Shown here piece after piece: positions 8,139-62,431 of a stretch of DNA of 64,000 nt. Under the pieces are notes generated by a model. The model saw only the letters and a list, made by a program, of their open reading frames with translations, was not told where the DNA came from and searched no databases. How positions within the stretch are numbered: the first letter of the stretch is position 1; the number at the start of each line of letters is the position of its first letter. The stretch covers positions 87,501-151,500 of the forward strand of contig NZ_CVSH01000052.1 in NCBI RefSeq assembly GCF_001179965.1, in the 5' to 3' direction. This DNA is from Candidatus Pelagibacter communis (GTDB lineage: Bacteria > Pseudomonadota > Alphaproteobacteria > Pelagibacterales > Pelagibacteraceae). The translations under genes and the position numbers were made by a program.

Positions 8139-9284
8139 TTACACAATGTATTTCTTTAGTAAGTTTAAATAATAATTTTCATCAATAGAAATTAATTTAT
8201 TGCTAATTTTAAATAACCGATTCATTAAAATAAAATAATTTTTTTTATTAAAATATTTTTTATCTTTATGCATTGCTTTTAAAAAAATTTTCTTATTAAA
8301 TATTTTTTTATCTAATGTTATTGGCAGATTGTACTTTTTAAATAATTTTCTACTGAGGATCAAAATACCTTTATTCAATTTATTTTTTTTTATTGAAATT
8401 TCTAGAGCGATCAGCATGCCAATTGTTATAGCCTCACCGTGTAAACATTTGTGTTTTGTTGCAATTTCTATAGCATGCCCAATAGTGTGTCCAAAATGAT
8501 ATACTGGCTGAAGTTCGTTATTTTTTTCATTAAATAAATCTACTTTACTCTTAATAGCTAATTTGAGAACTTTAGTAATATCCTCTTTAAATTCATTATC
8601 TTCAATTTCATTTAAATTTTTAATTACTTTTTTTTTTAAATATTTTGATTTATTTAATTTCAAATGATCTAGTAATTTTTTTGAATGACCAATTCCATGC
8701 TTTATTATTTCTGCGTATCCGTCCCAAAAATACCTTGAGGGTAGAAAGTTATAAATATAAGTGGTCTCAATAAAAACGTATTTTGGTAAAGCATATGATC
8801 CAATTTGATTTTTACCACCTCTTAAGTTTAAAGCATTTTTACAGGATATTGCAGCATCTGCTGATGCAAGTAAAGTTGTTGGTATAGATATAAAGTTTAT
8901 TCCTCTGTAAATTACTGATGAGATATAGCCAGCGAGGTCAATTATAGTACCTCCACCAATAGCAATTATAAAGCTATTAGCAGTTACACCAGAGCTAAAA
9001 ATTCTGTCTATATATTTTTTGAAATAAGATAGTGATTTGACCTGCTCTCCTCCTTTTATAGAAAAAACTTCTGCACCAAGTTCTTTCTCTAGTTTTTTAC
9101 AATATAGTTTTAGGTTCATTTTTTGGTGTAAGTTTTTATCAACAAAAACAAATACAGGATTTTTTTTTGTTATAGGTTTTAAAATTTGAGTTATATTTTT
9201 TTTCAAAAAAATATTTTTATTAAAAAAAATCTGGCAATTTTCACTATTTTTATAAATTAATTTTAAATTAGATTTTTTTTTCAT
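8139..9284 (-). CDS. Sugar-phosphate cyclase of the 3-dehydroquinate synthase superfamily
   Basis: A cytoplasmic NAD-dependent cyclase that would turn a sugar phosphate into a carbocyclic ketone. IIAIGGGTIIDLAGY (GGG at 110-112) is the NAD loop and IPTTLLASADAA follows. The predicted metal ligands are E192 (GYAEIIKHG), H266 (HFGHTIGHA) and H282 (LHGEA), spaced as in AroB. Two segments depart from AroB. Where AroB has S-V-G-G-K-T-A-V-N, this has ISCKNALN, closer to the S-L-K pattern of 2-deoxy-scyllo-inosose and 2-epi-5-epi-valiolone synthases. The D-E-R-E-T-x-x-R region is replaced by NEKNNELQPVYHFGHT. Its ATG overlaps the TAA of the upstream aminotransferase (TAATG). Together with that aminotransferase it suggests aminocyclitol synthesis; a second true AroB elsewhere is expected but not visible. 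Confidence 0.75.
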   Translation of the reverse strand: MKKKSNLKLIYKNSENCQIFFNKNIFLKKNITQILKPITKKNPVFVFVDKNLHQKMNLKLYCKKLEKELGAEVFSIKGGEQVKSLSYFKKYIDRIFSSGVTANSFIIAIGGGTIIDLAGYISSVIYRGINFISIPTTLLASADAAISCKNALNLRGGKNQIGSYALPKYVFIETTYIYNFLPSRYFWDGYAEIIKHGIGHSKKLLDHLKLNKSKYLKKKVIKNLNEIEDNEFKEDITKVLKLAIKSKVDLFNEKNNELQPVYHFGHTIGHAIEIATKHKCLHGEAITIGMLIALEISIKKNKLNKGILILSRKLFKKYNLPITLDKKIFNKKIFLKAMHKDKKYFNKKNYFILMNRLFKISNKLISIDENYYLNLLKKYIV

Positions 9285-10432
9285 TAATTTGATGAAATCT
9301 CACAAAAATAATTTTTATCCAGGTTAATATTGCTTCTTTTATCAGAGAAGTCTTTAAACTTGAATTTTTCTCTTTTTAAAAAAAACTTCCAAATTTCAAA
9401 ATGATGAGAGTCTTTTAAATTAACGTGCTCAAATTTTATTTTATTTTTTTTTAGTATTTTTTTAATCTTTGAGTGGGATATTCCCTCCTGTCTATTAAAA
9501 CCTAAAAAAGCATAATTTGTATTTGACTTCTTATCTAATTTTCTAAAAGAAATTAAATTACTTTCTTTAAGAATACTGAGTTTTTTATAAATTGTATTCC
9601 AATTTTTTTCACAACCATTTATTATTTTTTTTATTTTTTTTAATTGAGCAAATGCAACTGCTGCTGTTATTTCAGACATTCTATAGTTCAAACCACAAGA
9701 GGTAATAGAATTTGGACCTATTGGATCATTAGTTTTAGTGGGATCTTCACCCACCTTCCTGTTCATTCCTAAGTTATGAAACCTTACACTTTTCTCCAGA
9801 TACTTTTTTGAATTTGTCATCAAGGCACCACCCTCTCCAGCAGTTATCATTTTGTTATACTGAAAAGACATTGTTGAAATATCTCCCTGATTTCCAACCC
9901 TAACTTTGTTAAGAACCCCTCCAAAGCATTGGCTGCAATCTTCAATAATTACTACATTTTTTTTCTTAAAATAATTTTTGATTGATCTAAAATCACAAGG
10001 ATAACCACGCATATGAATTACAATTAGAGCTTTGGTTTTTTTTGAGACACATTTTTTTACTTTATTTAGATCAAGGTTAGCATCGTCTGATACTGGAGCA
10101 ATTACTGGTACCGCACCCATCATCACAATAGTCATCAAATCTGCACTCCAACCATAAGCTGGAACTATGACCTCATCCCCAGGTTTAACACCTATAGCAT
10201 GTAATGCGCAATGAAGAGCTGCAGTTCCCGAGTTGACAACTAAGCAATGTTTTTTTTTAACAAATTTAGCCATTTCAGTTTCAAGTTTATTACAATACAT
10301 CTGAAGTTTTAAACCTGAAAACCTATATGGAGATTTTGATTTTAAAACCTTATTAACATTGATGATTTCATTTTTACCAATATGTCTTCCACCAGGAAAT
10401 TGCCCAAAAGGAGATTTTTTTTTGACGTTCAT
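9284..10432 (-). CDS. DegT/DnrJ/EryC1-family PLP aminotransferase
   Basis: A 382-residue sugar or cyclitol aminotransferase. The PLP lysine is K194 in SFQYNKMITAGEGG, preceded by the ring-stacking/acid segment IIEDCSQCFGG at 162-172 and the phosphate-binding VNSGTAALHCAL near 67-78. It uses glutamate or glutamine to aminate a keto sugar; DegT relatives also aminate scyllo-inosose-type cyclitols. It is the first gene after the operator-promoter at 10427-10470. Its ATG lies inside the operator and the predicted message starts within about nine bases of it, so no ribosome binding site is present (leaderless). The adjacent downstream gene is the cyclase, so the cyclised ketone is an attractive substrate. 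Confidence 0.85.
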   Translation of the reverse strand: MNVKKKSPFGQFPGGRHIGKNEIINVNKVLKSKSPYRFSGLKLQMYCNKLETEMAKFVKKKHCLVVNSGTAALHCALHAIGVKPGDEVIVPAYGWSADLMTIVMMGAVPVIAPVSDDANLDLNKVKKCVSKKTKALIVIHMRGYPCDFRSIKNYFKKKNVVIIEDCSQCFGGVLNKVRVGNQGDISTMSFQYNKMITAGEGGALMTNSKKYLEKSVRFHNLGMNRKVGEDPTKTNDPIGPNSITSCGLNYRMSEITAAVAFAQLKKIKKIINGCEKNWNTIYKKLSILKESNLISFRKLDKKSNTNYAFLGFNRQEGISHSKIKKILKKNKIKFEHVNLKDSHHFEIWKFFLKREKFKFKDFSDKRSNINLDKNYFCEISSN

Positions 10433-10470
10433 TATTTGAACATTCTATTGTTCATTATTTGAACAGTCAA
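10427..10470 (-). promoter_or_regulatory. Sigma70-like promoter with two TGTTCA-N5-TGAACA operators, driving the 10432 aminotransferase cassette
   Basis: On the minus strand, TTGACT (10470-10465) is a near-consensus -35 and TAGAAT (10447-10442) a -10, with exactly 17 nt between. The spacer is filled by the inverted repeat at 10464-10450, and a second identical 15-bp core lies at 10441-10427, covering the expected start site and the ATG. The two cores are 23 bp apart, about two helical turns, on the same DNA face. The arrangement copies the one in front of the MarR-like regulator at 31063. Confidence 0.75.
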
Positions 10471-20099: not shown

Positions 20100-20738
20100 T
20101 TATAAACCAAAATTTAAAAATTTTCTTTTATCTATCTTTTTTTTTATTTTTATAAAATCCGAAATTGTATCAACTGATAATTTCATTATTTTTTTTTTAT
20201 TTTTGCTTTTAAAATTCTTTATTTTAAATTTACTACTATTTTTATAAAAATACCTTGTCACATGTTCTAAATCACTTTTCGACATTTTGTTAATATAATC
20301 TTTCAATATTTGTACTTTAATGATTTCAACTGACTGACCTTTTGGGAAAGTTCTTGGAAAAACATTTGTGATAATATCAAAGTTTTTATTTTTTTTGTGA
20401 ATTTTTATTGCATACTCTATTATTTTGCTATCTATTAGAGGACTATCTCCACTAATTCTCATAAAATATTTACATTTAATTTTCATTGCTAATCTAACAA
20501 ATCTTAAAACAACGTTTTCGAGTTCACCTCTAAAAAATCTTATTTTAAAATTTTTTAATAATTTTATTAAATTGTTATCTAAACTATTATTTGATGTAGC
20601 TACTATTATATCTTTTACTGATTTTGATTTTTTTACATTATTTACGACATGTATAATTAGAGGTAGTCCATAAATAATTTTTAAAACTTTTTTATCAAAT
20701 CTTTTAGAGTTTGATCTTGCCTGAATAAATACAATCAT
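20100..20738 (-). CDS. SpsF/NeuA-type cytidylyltransferase
   Basis: A 212-residue nucleotidyltransferase. FIQARSNSKRFDKKVL has the Q-A-R-x-x-S-x-R-x-x-x-K CTP-binding start of the SpsF/CMP-sugar synthetase group, RFFRGELENVVLRF is the SpsF-like FRG segment, and RISGDSPLID with its acidic residue matches the metal site. It would activate the NeuB product as a CMP-sugar before transfer to the polysaccharide. It overlaps the acetyltransferase by 4 nt. A second, longer paralogue (255 aa) sits with the other NeuB at 25692, so each synthase has its own activating enzyme. Confidence 0.8.
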   Translation of the reverse strand: MIVFIQARSNSKRFDKKVLKIIYGLPLIIHVVNNVKKSKSVKDIIVATSNNSLDNNLIKLLKNFKIRFFRGELENVVLRFVRLAMKIKCKYFMRISGDSPLIDSKIIEYAIKIHKKNKNFDIITNVFPRTFPKGQSVEIIKVQILKDYINKMSKSDLEHVTRYFYKNSSKFKIKNFKSKNKKKIMKLSVDTISDFIKIKKKIDKRKFLNFGL

Positions 20739-21496
20739 TTATTTCCCTTATTTTTAATATGATAAATATAATTTGTAGACATGTGAATAAATTTATTTTT
20801 TTTATAAAAACTTAAGGCATGAGTATTATAATCTTGAGTACCAGCATACAAATGTATCTTATATTTTTTCATAATTTTATTATTTACGTATGCAATTATT
20901 GATGAACCAATTTTTTGGTTACTAAATTTCTTCGAAGTACAAATTATATTTATATTTAATTTTTTCTTTATTTTTTGTAAAAGACAAAACCCACCAATTT
21001 TTTTATTTTTAAGGCATACAATTAAAAATTTTCCCGGTTTATTTCTAAAAGAATTTTCTAACCAATAATATCTTAAGGGGTATTTTAATAATTTTCTAAA
21101 AAAACTGTCTTTAACGAATCTAGAGTTGGATGTGTTTTCTTTACAAATTTTAAGTATTTCAAATCTATCTTTTTTTGTCGAAGGACGACAGTCTTGATAA
21201 ATTTTAAGGTTTTTTTTTTGATATTTTTTTTTAAAATTAATTTGTTTACAAAAAAAATGAGGATTAAATTCTTGTATTTTCTTCTTTGATATTGGTTTTT
21301 TTAATTTAAAATGAACAAAAAAGGGTTTTTGTAAATTCTTCTGAGATAAATCATTTTTCTTAAATGACTTATAAATTTCCTTCCCAGTTATTTGAGTTAA
21401 AAAATTATCCTTATTTAACATTATTAAATTTGAATATGTTTTAATTTGTAGGGCAAGATAGCGATCATTAATTCTGAGAAAATTTATACTGTTCAT
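20735..21496 (-). CDS. GNAT-family N-acetyltransferase with N-terminal extension
   Basis: A 253-residue protein whose C-terminal 140 residues look like a GNAT domain: DRFEILKICKENT, then GKFLIVCLKNKKIGGFCLLQ (beta4), FSNQKIGSSIIAYV (acetyl-CoA loop of Q/R-x-x-G type) and the ending LSFYKKNKFI. The first 110 residues are not recognised. It could acetylate an amino sugar before or after the NeuB step, a PseH-like role. The start is doubtful: the ATG at 21496 lies inside the operator, upstream of the likely -10 box at 21488-21483. The next in-frame ATG is at 21421 (residue 26); an unusual ATT start in between is possible. Confidence 0.65.
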   Translation of the reverse strand: MNSINFLRINDRYLALQIKTYSNLIMLNKDNFLTQITGKEIYKSFKKNDLSQKNLQKPFFVHFKLKKPISKKKIQEFNPHFFCKQINFKKKYQKKNLKIYQDCRPSTKKDRFEILKICKENTSNSRFVKDSFFRKLLKYPLRYYWLENSFRNKPGKFLIVCLKNKKIGGFCLLQKIKKKLNINIICTSKKFSNQKIGSSIIAYVNNKIMKKYKIHLYAGTQDYNTHALSFYKKNKFIHMSTNYIYHIKNKGNK

Positions 21497-21511
21497 TTAT
21501 TGAACAGTCAA
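21483..21511 (-). promoter_or_regulatory. Sigma70-like promoter with one TGTTCA-N5-TGAACA operator, before the acetyltransferase cassette
   Basis: On the minus strand, TTGACT (21511-21506) is followed by a 17-nt spacer made of the inverted repeat at 21505-21491 plus two bases, then TATAAA (21488-21483). This matches the promoters at 10427 and 31026 base for base in design but has only one operator, and the annotated ATG falls inside it. It should drive the minus-strand array from the acetyltransferase toward the AsnB genes. Confidence 0.65.
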
Positions 21512-31025: not shown

Positions 31026-31068
31026 TTGACCGTTCAAAGAATGAACATTATATGTTCAATTTATGAAC
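31026..31068 (+). promoter_or_regulatory. Sigma70-like promoter with two TGTTCA-N5-TGAACA operators; autoregulatory site
   Basis: TTGACC (31026-31031) and TATATG (31049-31054) are separated by 17 nt. The spacer is occupied by the inverted repeat GTTCA-N5-TGAAC at 31032-31046, and a second copy at 31054-31068 covers the predicted start site and the ATG at 31063. The cores are 22 bp apart. A transcript starting about 7 nt after the -10 would begin one to three bases from the ATG, so a leaderless message is predicted. Binding by the downstream MarR-like protein would block polymerase directly. Confidence 0.75.
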
Positions 31069-31370: not shown

Positions 31371-32672
31371 ATGAACCAATTAATTGCAAAAATTGAAAGT
31401 AAAAAGGCTGTTATAGGTGTGATTGGACTTGGTTATGTAGGTTTGCCATTAGCGTCAAATTTTTGCCGAAAAGGATATAATGTTATAGGTTTTGATATAG
31501 ATAAAAAAAAAGTAACCAAAGTAAATAAAAAAAAAAATTATATTAAAAGCGTTAATTTAAAAAAATATAAAAAAAAAATCTTAGCAACTTCAAAATTTAC
31601 CAGAATTAAAAACTGCGATGTCATAATAATCACTGTCCCTACACCACTAAAACAAAAAAATATCCCAGATTTAAGTTTCGTAAAGAATTCTATAAAAAAA
31701 ATTTTACCTTTCCTAAGGAAAAATCAGCTTATAAGTTTAGAAAGTACATCTTACCCAGGAACAACTGAAGAGGAATTAACCAAAAAAATTAAAAGTATGA
31801 CAGTCGGAAAAGATATATTTATTTGTTACTCACCCGAGAGAGAGGATCCAGGAAATAAATATTTTAAAACAATAGATGTACCCAAAATTATTAGTGGCGA
31901 AACTTCTAACTGCCTTAAAATAGCAAAAAAATTTTACAAAGTTTTTTTCAAATCTGTGGTTCCAGTCAGCTCAACAAAAACAGCTGAGTTTACGAAGCTT
32001 CTCGAAAATATTTATAGGTCAGTGAATATTGGGCTTGTAAATGAAATGAAAATTATTTCTAAAATCATGAAAATAAATATTCATGAGGCTATTAAAGCAG
32101 CTAGCACCAAGCCATTTGGTTATAGACCTTTTGATCCAGGTCCAGGTATGGGAGGTCATTGTATACCAATAGATCCTTTTTATATGTCGTGGAAAGCCAA
32201 TCAACTTGGTTATGATTCGAGATTCATAAGACAATCAGGAAATATTAACACGATTATGCCAAAATGGATCGTATCCAATATTGAAAAATTTTTCAAATCA
32301 AAAAAAAAAAAAATCAATAAATCAAAAATTCTCATAATTGGAATTGCATATAAAAAAAATGTAGATGACGATAGAGAAAGCCCAGCGTACGAAATAATGA
32401 AAATTTTAAATAAAAAAGGTTCAAAAATTTCTTATTATGATCCTTTAATTAAAAAAATTAACAAAAAAAGAAATTTTAAAAATTTTCATAATTTAAAATC
32501 GATAACTCTTAAAAATAATAAAATAAAAAATTTTGATGCCTCAATCATTGTAACTGATCATGATATTATAAATTTTAATAAAATTTATAAAAATTCAAAA
32601 ATTATTTTTGACTGTAGAAATCGGTACAAAATTAAATTAAACAAAAAAGACAACAAAGTAATTCAACTATAA
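31371..32672 (+). CDS. UDP-sugar 6-dehydrogenase (WbpA/TviB/WecC-like)
   Basis: A 433-residue UDP-glucose/UDP-GlcNAc/UDP-ManNAc dehydrogenase family member, which oxidises the C6 alcohol of a UDP-sugar to a uronic acid with two NAD. IGVIGLGYVGLPLA (G19-G24) is the NAD loop, LESTSYPGTTEEEL is the conserved segment before the catalytic region, and C264 in GMGGHCIPIDPFY is the expected thioester cysteine. AYKKNVDDDRESPAYEIM starts the C-terminal domain. It is probably co-transcribed with the regulator. Uronic acids made here could feed the epimerase at 37981 and the amidotransferases. Confidence 0.9.
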   Translation: MNQLIAKIESKKAVIGVIGLGYVGLPLASNFCRKGYNVIGFDIDKKKVTKVNKKKNYIKSVNLKKYKKKILATSKFTRIKNCDVIIITVPTPLKQKNIPDLSFVKNSIKKILPFLRKNQLISLESTSYPGTTEEELTKKIKSMTVGKDIFICYSPEREDPGNKYFKTIDVPKIISGETSNCLKIAKKFYKVFFKSVVPVSSTKTAEFTKLLENIYRSVNIGLVNEMKIISKIMKINIHEAIKAASTKPFGYRPFDPGPGMGGHCIPIDPFYMSWKANQLGYDSRFIRQSGNINTIMPKWIVSNIEKFFKSKKKKINKSKILIIGIAYKKNVDDDRESPAYEIMKILNKKGSKISYYDPLIKKINKKRNFKNFHNLKSITLKNNKIKNFDASIIVTDHDIINFNKIYKNSKIIFDCRNRYKIKLNKKDNKVIQL

Positions 32673-32678
32673 ATTTTT

Positions 32679-34220
32679 ATGTTTTTGATATCTAGAAAAC
32701 TAATACAGTTAAAAAGGGTATTTTTAAATGATGTAGAGAAAAGTTTTCTAAAATTAAATCATCGTAACCACAATTCTAATAAAGGTAATAAAATAATACT
32801 TTTAGAGATGGGGGAGGACATATATTTTTTAGTTCATTTTTATTTTTTATTAAAAAAAAAAATGTTTCAAAATAAAAAAATTGTTGGATTGTGGATAAAC
32901 CCTGGAAACATTAAGAAACCAGGTATTAGAGGCACTATAGCCTTTTTATTTCAATGTTTAATTTTGCACTTTATAAAACTCAAGTGGAAAAAGATCTACA
33001 AATGTCTTGGAGTAAATGAAGTCATTGAGCTAAATAATAATTTTAAAGATAATGTATTTATAAGAAATACTACTTTCATAAAGAAAAATTGCAATTTAAA
33101 AAATAAAGAAGATGTTTTAAGAATTAACTTTAAAGGAATAAAAATTGGAGATTTAATTTATGATCATTATTTAAGATTTAATAACTCAGTTTCCTTTGAT
33201 ATTAAAAATAGGTATGCAATTAAAAGATTGTTAAATTTTATAGAAACCTCTAATGAAAATCTAGATAAGTTTTATTTTAAAAACAAAAATGATATTTTAT
33301 ATTATATTCCTCAGAAAGCATTCTATACAAATGGTTTTGCCGTAAGATATTTTTTAAGTAAAAAAGTTCAAACTATAGGAGGTATCGAAGACAATAAATA
33401 TATTAAAAAATTTTCAAAAAATGATTACCGAGCGACTACAAAATGCGAAAATTTACCAATTAAATTTAAATCCTTAAAAAATAAAAGAAGAAAAATTTCA
33501 TTATCAAAAAAAAAACTTAGAGATAAATTTAACGGGAAAATAGCTACGGAATTAAAGTATATGAGAAAATCCTCTTATAACAAAAAAAAAACTTTTAAAA
33601 TAAAAAGAAAATTTGATGTAATAATTTTTCTACCTGATTTTTCTGATGCACCGCACGTTTATGGTAAAGTTGTATTTAATGATTTTTCTGATTGGATACA
33701 CGAGACATTGAGTTTTCTAAAATTAAAAAATATATCAATTGCAATTAAAGAACATCCAAATAGTTGGATTTATAATACAATTAAATTTCAAGAAGATCTA
33801 AAGAAAAAGTATTCAAACTTAATTTGGTTTAATAAGAATATTTCCAATATATCAATTTTTAATAAAAGGCCGAAATTTGGAATTTCACCTTTTGGAAGTG
33901 TTTTGCATGAGTTAGCTTATCATAAAATTGTTCCAATAGCTGCAGGATCAAATCCATGTATGGGATATGATTTTGTATTTACACCGAGGAATAAAAAACA
34001 CTATTTTGAACTAATTAATAAAGCAATTAGGAATGAGCTTTATTTGAAAGAAAATTTTAAAGAAAAGATAGCTGAGTGTTATTATATGTTTTTTCTACAT
34101 AATGATGATTTTTTAAAAAATGAATCTAGAGAACTTAATTTAAAAAAATATTTACCATCTGCAGGAATGAAGAGCATTACAATTCTAGACAAATTTAATA
34201 AGGGATATTTTAATAAATGA
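32679..34220 (+). CDS. Capsule-type surface carbohydrate protein, putative GT-B glycosyltransferase
   Basis: A 513-residue cytoplasmic protein that I can place only broadly. The second half reads VIIFLPDFSDAPHVYG, AIKEHPNSWIYNT (the K-E-H-P-N segment seen in capsule polysaccharide transferases and CDP-glycerol glycerophosphotransferase-like GT-B proteins) and ISPFGSVLHELAYHKIVPIAAGSNP, where the G-S-V-x-x-E-L pattern resembles the nucleotide-sugar binding site. The first half (IILLEMGEDIYFLVHFYFLLKK) looks like the acceptor-side Rossmann domain. It overlaps the next gene by 4 nt. The sugar is unknown. Confidence 0.55.
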   Translation: MFLISRKLIQLKRVFLNDVEKSFLKLNHRNHNSNKGNKIILLEMGEDIYFLVHFYFLLKKKMFQNKKIVGLWINPGNIKKPGIRGTIAFLFQCLILHFIKLKWKKIYKCLGVNEVIELNNNFKDNVFIRNTTFIKKNCNLKNKEDVLRINFKGIKIGDLIYDHYLRFNNSVSFDIKNRYAIKRLLNFIETSNENLDKFYFKNKNDILYYIPQKAFYTNGFAVRYFLSKKVQTIGGIEDNKYIKKFSKNDYRATTKCENLPIKFKSLKNKRRKISLSKKKLRDKFNGKIATELKYMRKSSYNKKKTFKIKRKFDVIIFLPDFSDAPHVYGKVVFNDFSDWIHETLSFLKLKNISIAIKEHPNSWIYNTIKFQEDLKKKYSNLIWFNKNISNISIFNKRPKFGISPFGSVLHELAYHKIVPIAAGSNPCMGYDFVFTPRNKKHYFELINKAIRNELYLKENFKEKIAECYYMFFLHNDDFLKNESRELNLKKYLPSAGMKSITILDKFNKGYFNK

Positions 34221-62313: not shown

Positions 62314-62431
62314 TGCCTGGTGATTATTGCGAAGGTGTAATACCCGATCCCATTCCGAACTCGGAAGTCAAGCCCTTCTGCGCCGATGGTACTTTGTCTT
62401 AAGACATGGAAGAGTAGGACGTTGCCAGGCT
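62314..62431 (+). rRNA. rrf: 5S ribosomal RNA
   Basis: About 118 bases with the full 5S pattern. GCCTGG at 62315-62320 pairs with CCAGGC at 62425-62430 to form helix I. CCCGATCCCATTCCGAACTC is the strongly conserved loop-B/C region, GAAGTCAAGC follows it, and GCCGATGGTACTTTG with GAGAGTAGGACG-like residues (62410-62421) match loops D and E. No 16S, 23S or tRNA gene is beside it. The last two bases overlap the stop codon of the facing glycosyltransferase gene. Exact ends are uncertain by one or two bases. Confidence 0.93.

Follow-up and report, generated by a model that had tools for sequence, protein, structure and literature searches.

The autorepressor mechanism of MarR/SlyA-type proteins is one model with which the regulator studied here can be compared. 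The regulator is, by score, a member of the NCBIfam family TIGR04176 (MarR_EPS) and heads a polysaccharide cassette. In the literature that we searched, TIGR04176 appears as annotation only and no operator was found for it; the search was partial, and an earlier description is possible. An EPS-associated MarR gene was up-regulated under salt in Acidithiobacillus caldus, according to the part of that paper available to us (PMC10599003), and the available parts of the PEP-CTERM/EpsH paper (PMC1569441) and of a paper on Proteobacteria regulons (PMC5343134) contain no passage on the EPS-associated MarR regulator. A first-pass annotation of the DNA had treated the binding of inverted repeats by such proteins as known; we found no experimental source for this in the literature searched.

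SAR11 bacteria are the most abundant in the ocean. The window, by which we mean the whole stretch of 64,000 nucleotides analysed, comes from a SAR11 assembly of 801,227 bases that is 67.7% complete. SAR11 hypervariable region 2 is described, in the part of the source available, as 48 kb of mainly cell-surface genes flanked by 5S and 23S genes (Wilhelm et al. 2007, PMC2217521). Because the 5S rRNA gene at the right edge of the window (62316-62430) matches the described flank, the island carried by the window is very probably this region. The features of the island on which our argument draws are the following.

31026-31031, plus strand: -35 hexamer TTGACC of the marR promoter, read directly from the sequence
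31032-31046, no strand: operator 1, GTTCAAAGAATGAAC, GTTCA-N5-TGAAC, within the -35/-10 spacer of the marR promoter; recurs in marR promoters of the order
31049-31054, plus strand: -10 hexamer TATATG, 17 nt from the -35 hexamer of the marR promoter
31054-31068, no strand: operator 2, GTTCAATTTATGAAC, GTTCA-N5-TGAAC, spanning the predicted +1 and the marR start codon
31063-31365, plus strand: EPS-associated MarR-like regulator of 100 aa (TIGR04176 MarR_EPS; winged helix in AlphaFold2)
31371-32672, plus strand: nucleotide-sugar (UDP-sugar) dehydrogenase, first gene behind marR (TIGR03026, 400 bits)
10450-10464, no strand: operator 1 of cassette A, flanked on the minus strand by TTGACT (10470-10465) and TAGAAT (10447-10442)
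10427-10441, no strand: operator 2 of cassette A, covering the minus-strand ATG at 10432-10430
9284-10432, minus strand: DegT/PseC-like aminotransferase, first gene of cassette A, which runs to about 550
21491-21505, no strand: single operator of cassette B, with TTGACT (21511-21506) before it and TATAAA (21488-21483) after it on the minus strand
20735-21496, minus strand: acetyltransferase, first gene of cassette B, which extends from 21496 down to about 10494

The regulator scores 126.6 bits against TIGR04176 (cut-off 88), covering profile positions 2-96 of 105. It lies below the gathering thresholds of the Pfam MarR profiles (22.7 against 24.6 for PF01047 and 22.6 against 27 for PF12802) and above that of HTH_24 (44.9 against 21.9). 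The AlphaFold2 model, made with a 55-sequence alignment, is a winged helix with a mean pLDDT of 89.5: predicted helices span residues 7-19 and 25-32, the recognition helix 36-48 and a long C-terminal helix 72-99, and the wing is formed by strands 52-58 and 64-70. The same alignment shows no variation at S35, L36, G37, N40 and C42, where the recognition helix begins, and no sensor domain is visible. A phage origin was considered and rejected: the protein has no match (E up to 1e-3) among 50,697 phage records, and of 600 pattern matches in viral contigs not one was confirmed. The surroundings are those of a surface-polysaccharide locus: behind the UDP-sugar dehydrogenase, plus-strand genes for a methyltransferase, an ABC transporter, two epimerases and a glycosyltransferase, together with three genes without a match, continue up to 42922, a weak Capsule_synth match lies on the same strand at 34217, and NeuB genes are found elsewhere in the island.

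The first-pass annotation stated that the palindrome exactly fills the 17-nt spacer between the hexamers of the marR promoter; the spacer does measure 17 nt (31032-31048) and contains operator 1, but the palindrome occupies 15 of its 17 bases, so the wording was slightly off. The second palindrome begins within the -10 hexamer, its first G being the last base of TATATG, and contains the start codon (31063-31065), as had been proposed along with the predicted +1. The two sites thus overlap the predicted promoter core, where a repressor would be expected to sit. The claim of a leaderless transcript fared less evenly: our promoter model predicts a leader of about 2 nt, which makes a near-leaderless start plausible in the window, but the trait is not conserved among relatives, as leaders predicted for the 39 double-site promoters of the order range from -4 to 31 nt (median 11), 11 of them being 4 nt or less. 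Of the order's 73 marR genes, 16 have an in-frame ATG-AAC inside the last palindrome.

The same repeat had been reported at two other cassette starts, and it is indeed present there. The start of cassette A repeats the two-site layout of marR, with TTGACT, site and TAGAAT followed by a second site over the ATG; cassette B has one site, and behind its acetyltransferase come cytidylyltransferase, MocA, DegT aminotransferase, epimerase, NeuB and asparagine-synthase genes. Its -10 hexamer falls inside the listed acetyltransferase reading frame, which starts at 21496, so either the true start lies downstream or another promoter is used. Altogether, the window has five exact copies of GTTCA-N5-TGAAC against 0.03 expected from 100 shuffles; these are the only copies in the whole assembly, and the reversed word used as a control does not occur. 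The longer form TGTTCA-N5-TGAACA is matched by three of the five, the other two differing in one outer base. When two mismatches were allowed, the longer form gave eight matches where 5.65 were expected, and it follows that only the exact form is informative.

To see how far the association extends within the order we searched 297 genomes, of which 72 carry a TIGR04176 gene over the cut-off; four matches below it were left out. The search for the strict 17-base word, TGTTCA-N5-TGAACA, that the first-pass annotation had proposed as a check does track these genomes: the word is found in 72 genomes, 60 with both word and gene, 12 with the gene only and 12 with the word only, leaving 213 with neither. 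It is thus present in 60 of the 72 marR-positive and 12 of the 225 other genomes (Fisher p 2.7e-38, a value to be read knowing that related species are not independent samples), at 1.36 and 0.05 copies per genome, respectively. The reversed word is found in 12 of the 297 genomes, five with the gene and seven without; given those seven among 225, the strict words of the 12 marR-negative genomes, one copy in each, look like background. As a defining word, the 17-base form proved too strict and was abandoned: 11 of the 12 marR-positive genomes that lack it have the shorter word at marR, and in the remaining one (G178) the region is cut by the contig end.

At the level of genes the shorter word is almost invariable. 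There are 73 genes over the cut-off in the order, and 71 of them have at least 100 nt of upstream sequence (L097 and L128 are too near a contig end); the exact 15-base word lies within 135 nt upstream in 69 of the 71, the reversed word in none, and 44 have two copies. The word is absent upstream of L108 and L137, and L129 has it only at -134, a site that we treated as a marR site in this count and as a non-marR site in the count of targets below. No spacer of 0-4 or 6-12 bases was found upstream of the marR genes of the order, and in the rest of their loci (1.22 Mb) N5 occurs 23 times and every other spacer zero to three times. The five spacer bases vary among sites, with A and T dominant, while the half-sites are constant. 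Where there are two words, they are 20, 21, 22, 23 or 24 bases apart in 6, 5, 7, 16 and 5 cases (39 of the 44 double-site genes). Most of these 39 promoters have the motif TT[T/G]AC one base ahead of the first word (T in 37, T in 37, A in 38 and C in 35), and the best -35/-10 spacing is 17 in 32, with ties settled towards 17.

Copies away from marR lie near reading-frame starts. The marR loci of the order (1.25 Mb) contain 137 exact words, 112 at marR and 25 elsewhere, and the centres of all 25 lie 1-91 nt from the nearest mechanically listed reading-frame start; none is flagged inside a reading frame of at least 80 aa. A motif frequent outside gene starts, which had been named as an observation that would speak against an operator, is thus not what these loci hold. 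The genes served by the marR promoter, on the other hand, change from locus to locus. Ten sampled from 68 genes directly after marR include epimerases, a cytidylyltransferase, ABC transporters, a radical-SAM protein, a CDP-alcohol transferase and a carbamoyltransferase, two of the ten having no Pfam match; no conserved downstream gene emerged, and a match to the window's UDP-sugar dehydrogenase comes next in only four of 73 loci, the window included. As the gene after marR varies, the conserved unit is the regulator with its operator, while the cargo changes. In the order, 30 of 70 loci have a protein of about 165 aa resembling NusG/UpxY directly behind marR, the place taken by the UDP-sugar dehydrogenase in the window; five of seven tested match UpxY at E < 1e-3, none of them above the cut-off, and two have no match. 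The same single query found such a next gene in none of 72 other loci, a search in which a diverged one could be missed. An arrangement of this kind would combine repression at the promoter with an elongation factor serving long operons.

The word is not confined to the order. With five proteobacterial relatives as queries, a scan of genomes from 84,980 species confirmed at least 524 relatives, and from these we took the best 80 loci, picked by protein similarity alone; they come from Gallionellaceae, other Nitrosomonadales, Methylobacillus, Methylotenera, Methylophaga, Alcanivorax, Mariprofundaceae, Oricola and others. Among these best 80 of at least 524, GTTCA-N5-TGAAC lies within 300 nt upstream in 79 loci, in 71 of them starting 20-45 nt before the start of the matched protein, and the eightieth, from Oricola, has N4 instead of N5 upstream of marR; the rest of the 80 loci, 465 kb in all, holds two N5 words. 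The Gallionellaceae-type loci inspected have one word, between a promoter of the TTGACA...TGTAAT type and the ATG, and the extra word in the -35/-10 spacer therefore looks like an addition made in the window's order. Ten whole genomes of 2.3-5.1 Mb from the same set contain 1, 1, 3, 1, 1, 2, 6, 1, 1 and 1 strict words, and two of them have one copy each of the reversed word. By coordinates, the single word adjoins marR in all seven one-word genomes, and the two-word genome has two TIGR04176 genes with one word beside each. The genome with six strict N5 words, Oricola G699, has a single marR gene with an N4 site of its own; three of the six lie within 5.5 kb on one contig (C40:198465-203943), and the TIGR04176 gene is on another.

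An even draw of 398 genomes from the phylum yielded 26 over the TIGR04176 cut-off, the truncated matches of G484 and other weak matches below the cut-off being left out. The N5 word precedes 14 of the 17 standalone genes of this sample that exceed the cut-off; when 21 standalone phylum-level genes are considered, seven lack GTTCA-N5, one having GTTCA-N4, five GCTCA-N4 and one nothing. The sites, their positions and their conservation are thus linked to the TIGR04176 family across Pseudomonadota, and the word stands before almost every gene of the family that we examined.

Two comparisons serve as natural controls, the first of them provided by a gene fusion. In 14 genomes of one alphaproteobacterial family, which we call Rhodobacteraceae-type on the grounds that the plasmid relatives are Rhodobacterales, the MarR_EPS domain lies within a reading frame of 690-705 aa, and in the five of these fusions tested, ATP-sulfurylase and APS-kinase domains follow the N-terminal MarR_EPS domain. 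The set consists of L157-L167 together with G621, G531 and G595, which were added afterwards. GTTCA-N4-TGAACA is present upstream of the fusion gene in all 14, at a distance of roughly 40 to 115 nt from the domain match. The same word also occurs elsewhere in nine of the 14 genomes and its reversed form in five; as an 11-base word is expected by chance in 3-5 Mb, the evidence here comes from position and not from number. From 51 matching records we inspected four unfused plasmid relatives without the DNA-binding domain, and none of the four has such a word, with any spacer of 0-12 bases, in the 1.5 kb upstream. It is possible that the fusion is a sulfate-activation enzyme regulating its own synthesis.

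As the second control, we compared spacer length with the recognition helix in 185 genes, seven of which repeat the protein of another row, leaving 178 distinct proteins; four fusion genes below the cut-off were kept. Judged from these sequences, the spacer follows residue 38 of the helix: among the proteins having a site, lysine at this position goes with N5 in 153 of 153, and glycine, alanine or serine with N4-type sites in nine of nine, five of them being of the GCTCA class, and arginine is found with N4 in eight and N5 in two. As the N4 group is alphaproteobacterial apart from some unassigned cases, shared descent contributes to this association, which is not a formal test. Five alphaproteobacterial proteins (L150, L153, L293, L294 and L300) have an altered recognition helix (STGGIHY, SVGSAHF and similar), in which position 40 is histidine, and GCTCA-N4-T(G/A)A(A/G)C about 119-134 nt upstream; a shifted operator specificity is possible in these, although the GCTCA-N4 class was read off the same five sequences and is a lead rather than a test. 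One protein with lysine at 38 and histidine at 40 keeps GTTCA-N5, so that the histidine alone does not predict the change of half-site.

From these patterns we infer that the regulator binds the palindromes as a dimer, that it represses rather than activates and that it regulates its own gene. Each subunit of the TIGR04176 dimer would insert its recognition helix (36-48) into one GTTCA half-site. Many promoters of the window's order would carry a pair of dimers 20-24 bp, or about two helical turns, apart, one between the -35 and -10 elements and the other over the start site. The bound dimers would keep RNA polymerase off the marR promoter and hence off the polysaccharide operon behind it, and with the level of free regulator setting its own ceiling, expression would be self-limiting. 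The same operator would place cassettes A and B of the hypervariable island under the same regulator. Very probably, then, the regulator shuts off its own promoter and the surface-sugar genes that follow, and our best reading is that a compact winged-helix autorepressor with a family-wide operator forms a portable control module heading variable polysaccharide operons. A broader reading, to which we give an even chance as a whole, is that GTTCA-N4/5-TGAAC is the ancestral operator of the family, belonging to a portable promoter-plus-repressor module with nearly a single target, that the N4 fusion regulates itself, presumably by the state of sulfate activation, and that helix positions 38 and 40 make up a small recognition code.

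Several other explanations fit parts of these observations. The site may be purely autoregulatory and the copies at the other cassettes of the window functionless remnants of duplicated promoters: in seven of the ten whole genomes outside the order, the sole strict site is the one at marR, and the promoters of cassettes A and B do resemble that of marR. We consider this unlikely, as all 25 non-marR copies in the marR loci of the order are near reading-frame starts and none of the 21 outside the window has the TT[T/G]AC neighbour typical of marR, which shows that these words are not copies of one promoter. Alternatively, the regulator could bind the same sites and activate, or switch between states, by bending the promoter for RNA polymerase. 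MerR-type activators act in the -35/-10 spacer, and one of our sites is centred there; such action has, to our mind, little probability when the spacer already has the ideal 17 nt, and needs no distortion, in 32 of the 39 double-site promoters whose -35 and -10 words are good, the second site covers the predicted start, and the single site of the Gallionellaceae-type loci inspected lies downstream of the -10 element in the position of a repressor.

The repeats might also have another reader, with the EPS-MarR gene merely one of its targets. GTTC-N7-GAAC resembles the LexA words of other bacteria, although the alphaproteobacterial LexA word is a direct and not an inverted repeat. A LexA-like reader is hard to reconcile with a site that is nearly unique in whole genomes and placed at the marR gene, with five assembly copies that all fall within one island, with a spacer that tracks the regulator's own helix and with the absence of the word from the four unfused relatives of the fusion gene; we rejected this explanation on the near-uniqueness at marR and the contrast between fused and unfused genes, and regard it as highly improbable. 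Still less credible is that the palindromes are RNA hairpins or parts of a mobile repeat element. Palindromes can fold and the copies recur in one island, yet operator 1 lies upstream of the predicted +1 and would not be transcribed from the marR promoter, the five spacer bases vary when the half-sites do not, and the copies are near reading-frame starts. An RNA element was also rejected on the Rfam search, where the 5S rRNA gene was the only match in the window at gathering thresholds.

With repression of its own promoter as the preferred reading, a regulator family that appears in the literature searched as annotation only gains a precise and testable candidate operator across Pseudomonadota, and SAR11 gains a candidate switch for its hypervariable surface-sugar island. 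Phages commonly use surface sugars as receptors, and an operator that can be read from sequence allows cassettes under common control to be sought in genomes and transcriptomes.

How the regulator relates to systems with solved structures depends on the feature compared. By fold, MarR and PadR proteins are tied at Z of about 12, and an assignment to one or the other on this basis was given up. The MarR/SlyA type, matched by 3bj6 (Z 12.6) and 1jgs (Z 12.2), shares the winged helix and the palindromic sites over the protein's own promoter, but the window's regulator has only 100 aa, and the aligned ranges, which begin at residue 34 in 3bj6 and residue 37 in 1jgs, show no counterpart of the N-terminal dimer helix of those proteins. 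PadR-type proteins (3hhh, Z 12.1; 6abt, Z 12.0) are similar in length and have a long C-terminal helix, and the PadR family is absent from the Pfam and NCBIfam matches of the regulator at E up to 0.001. A further comparison is with the archaeal-type winged helices LrpA and Sta1/Lrs14. The best sequence match among solved structures is LrpA (1i1g, 6.5e-7); there is no Lrp ligand domain among the Pfam matches, and the scores for Sta1 (30 bits) and Lrs14 (24.9 bits) are below the NCBIfam cut-offs of 80 and 90 bits. Relative to all that is annotated for TIGR04176, the family to which the regulator belongs, the operator is the new part.
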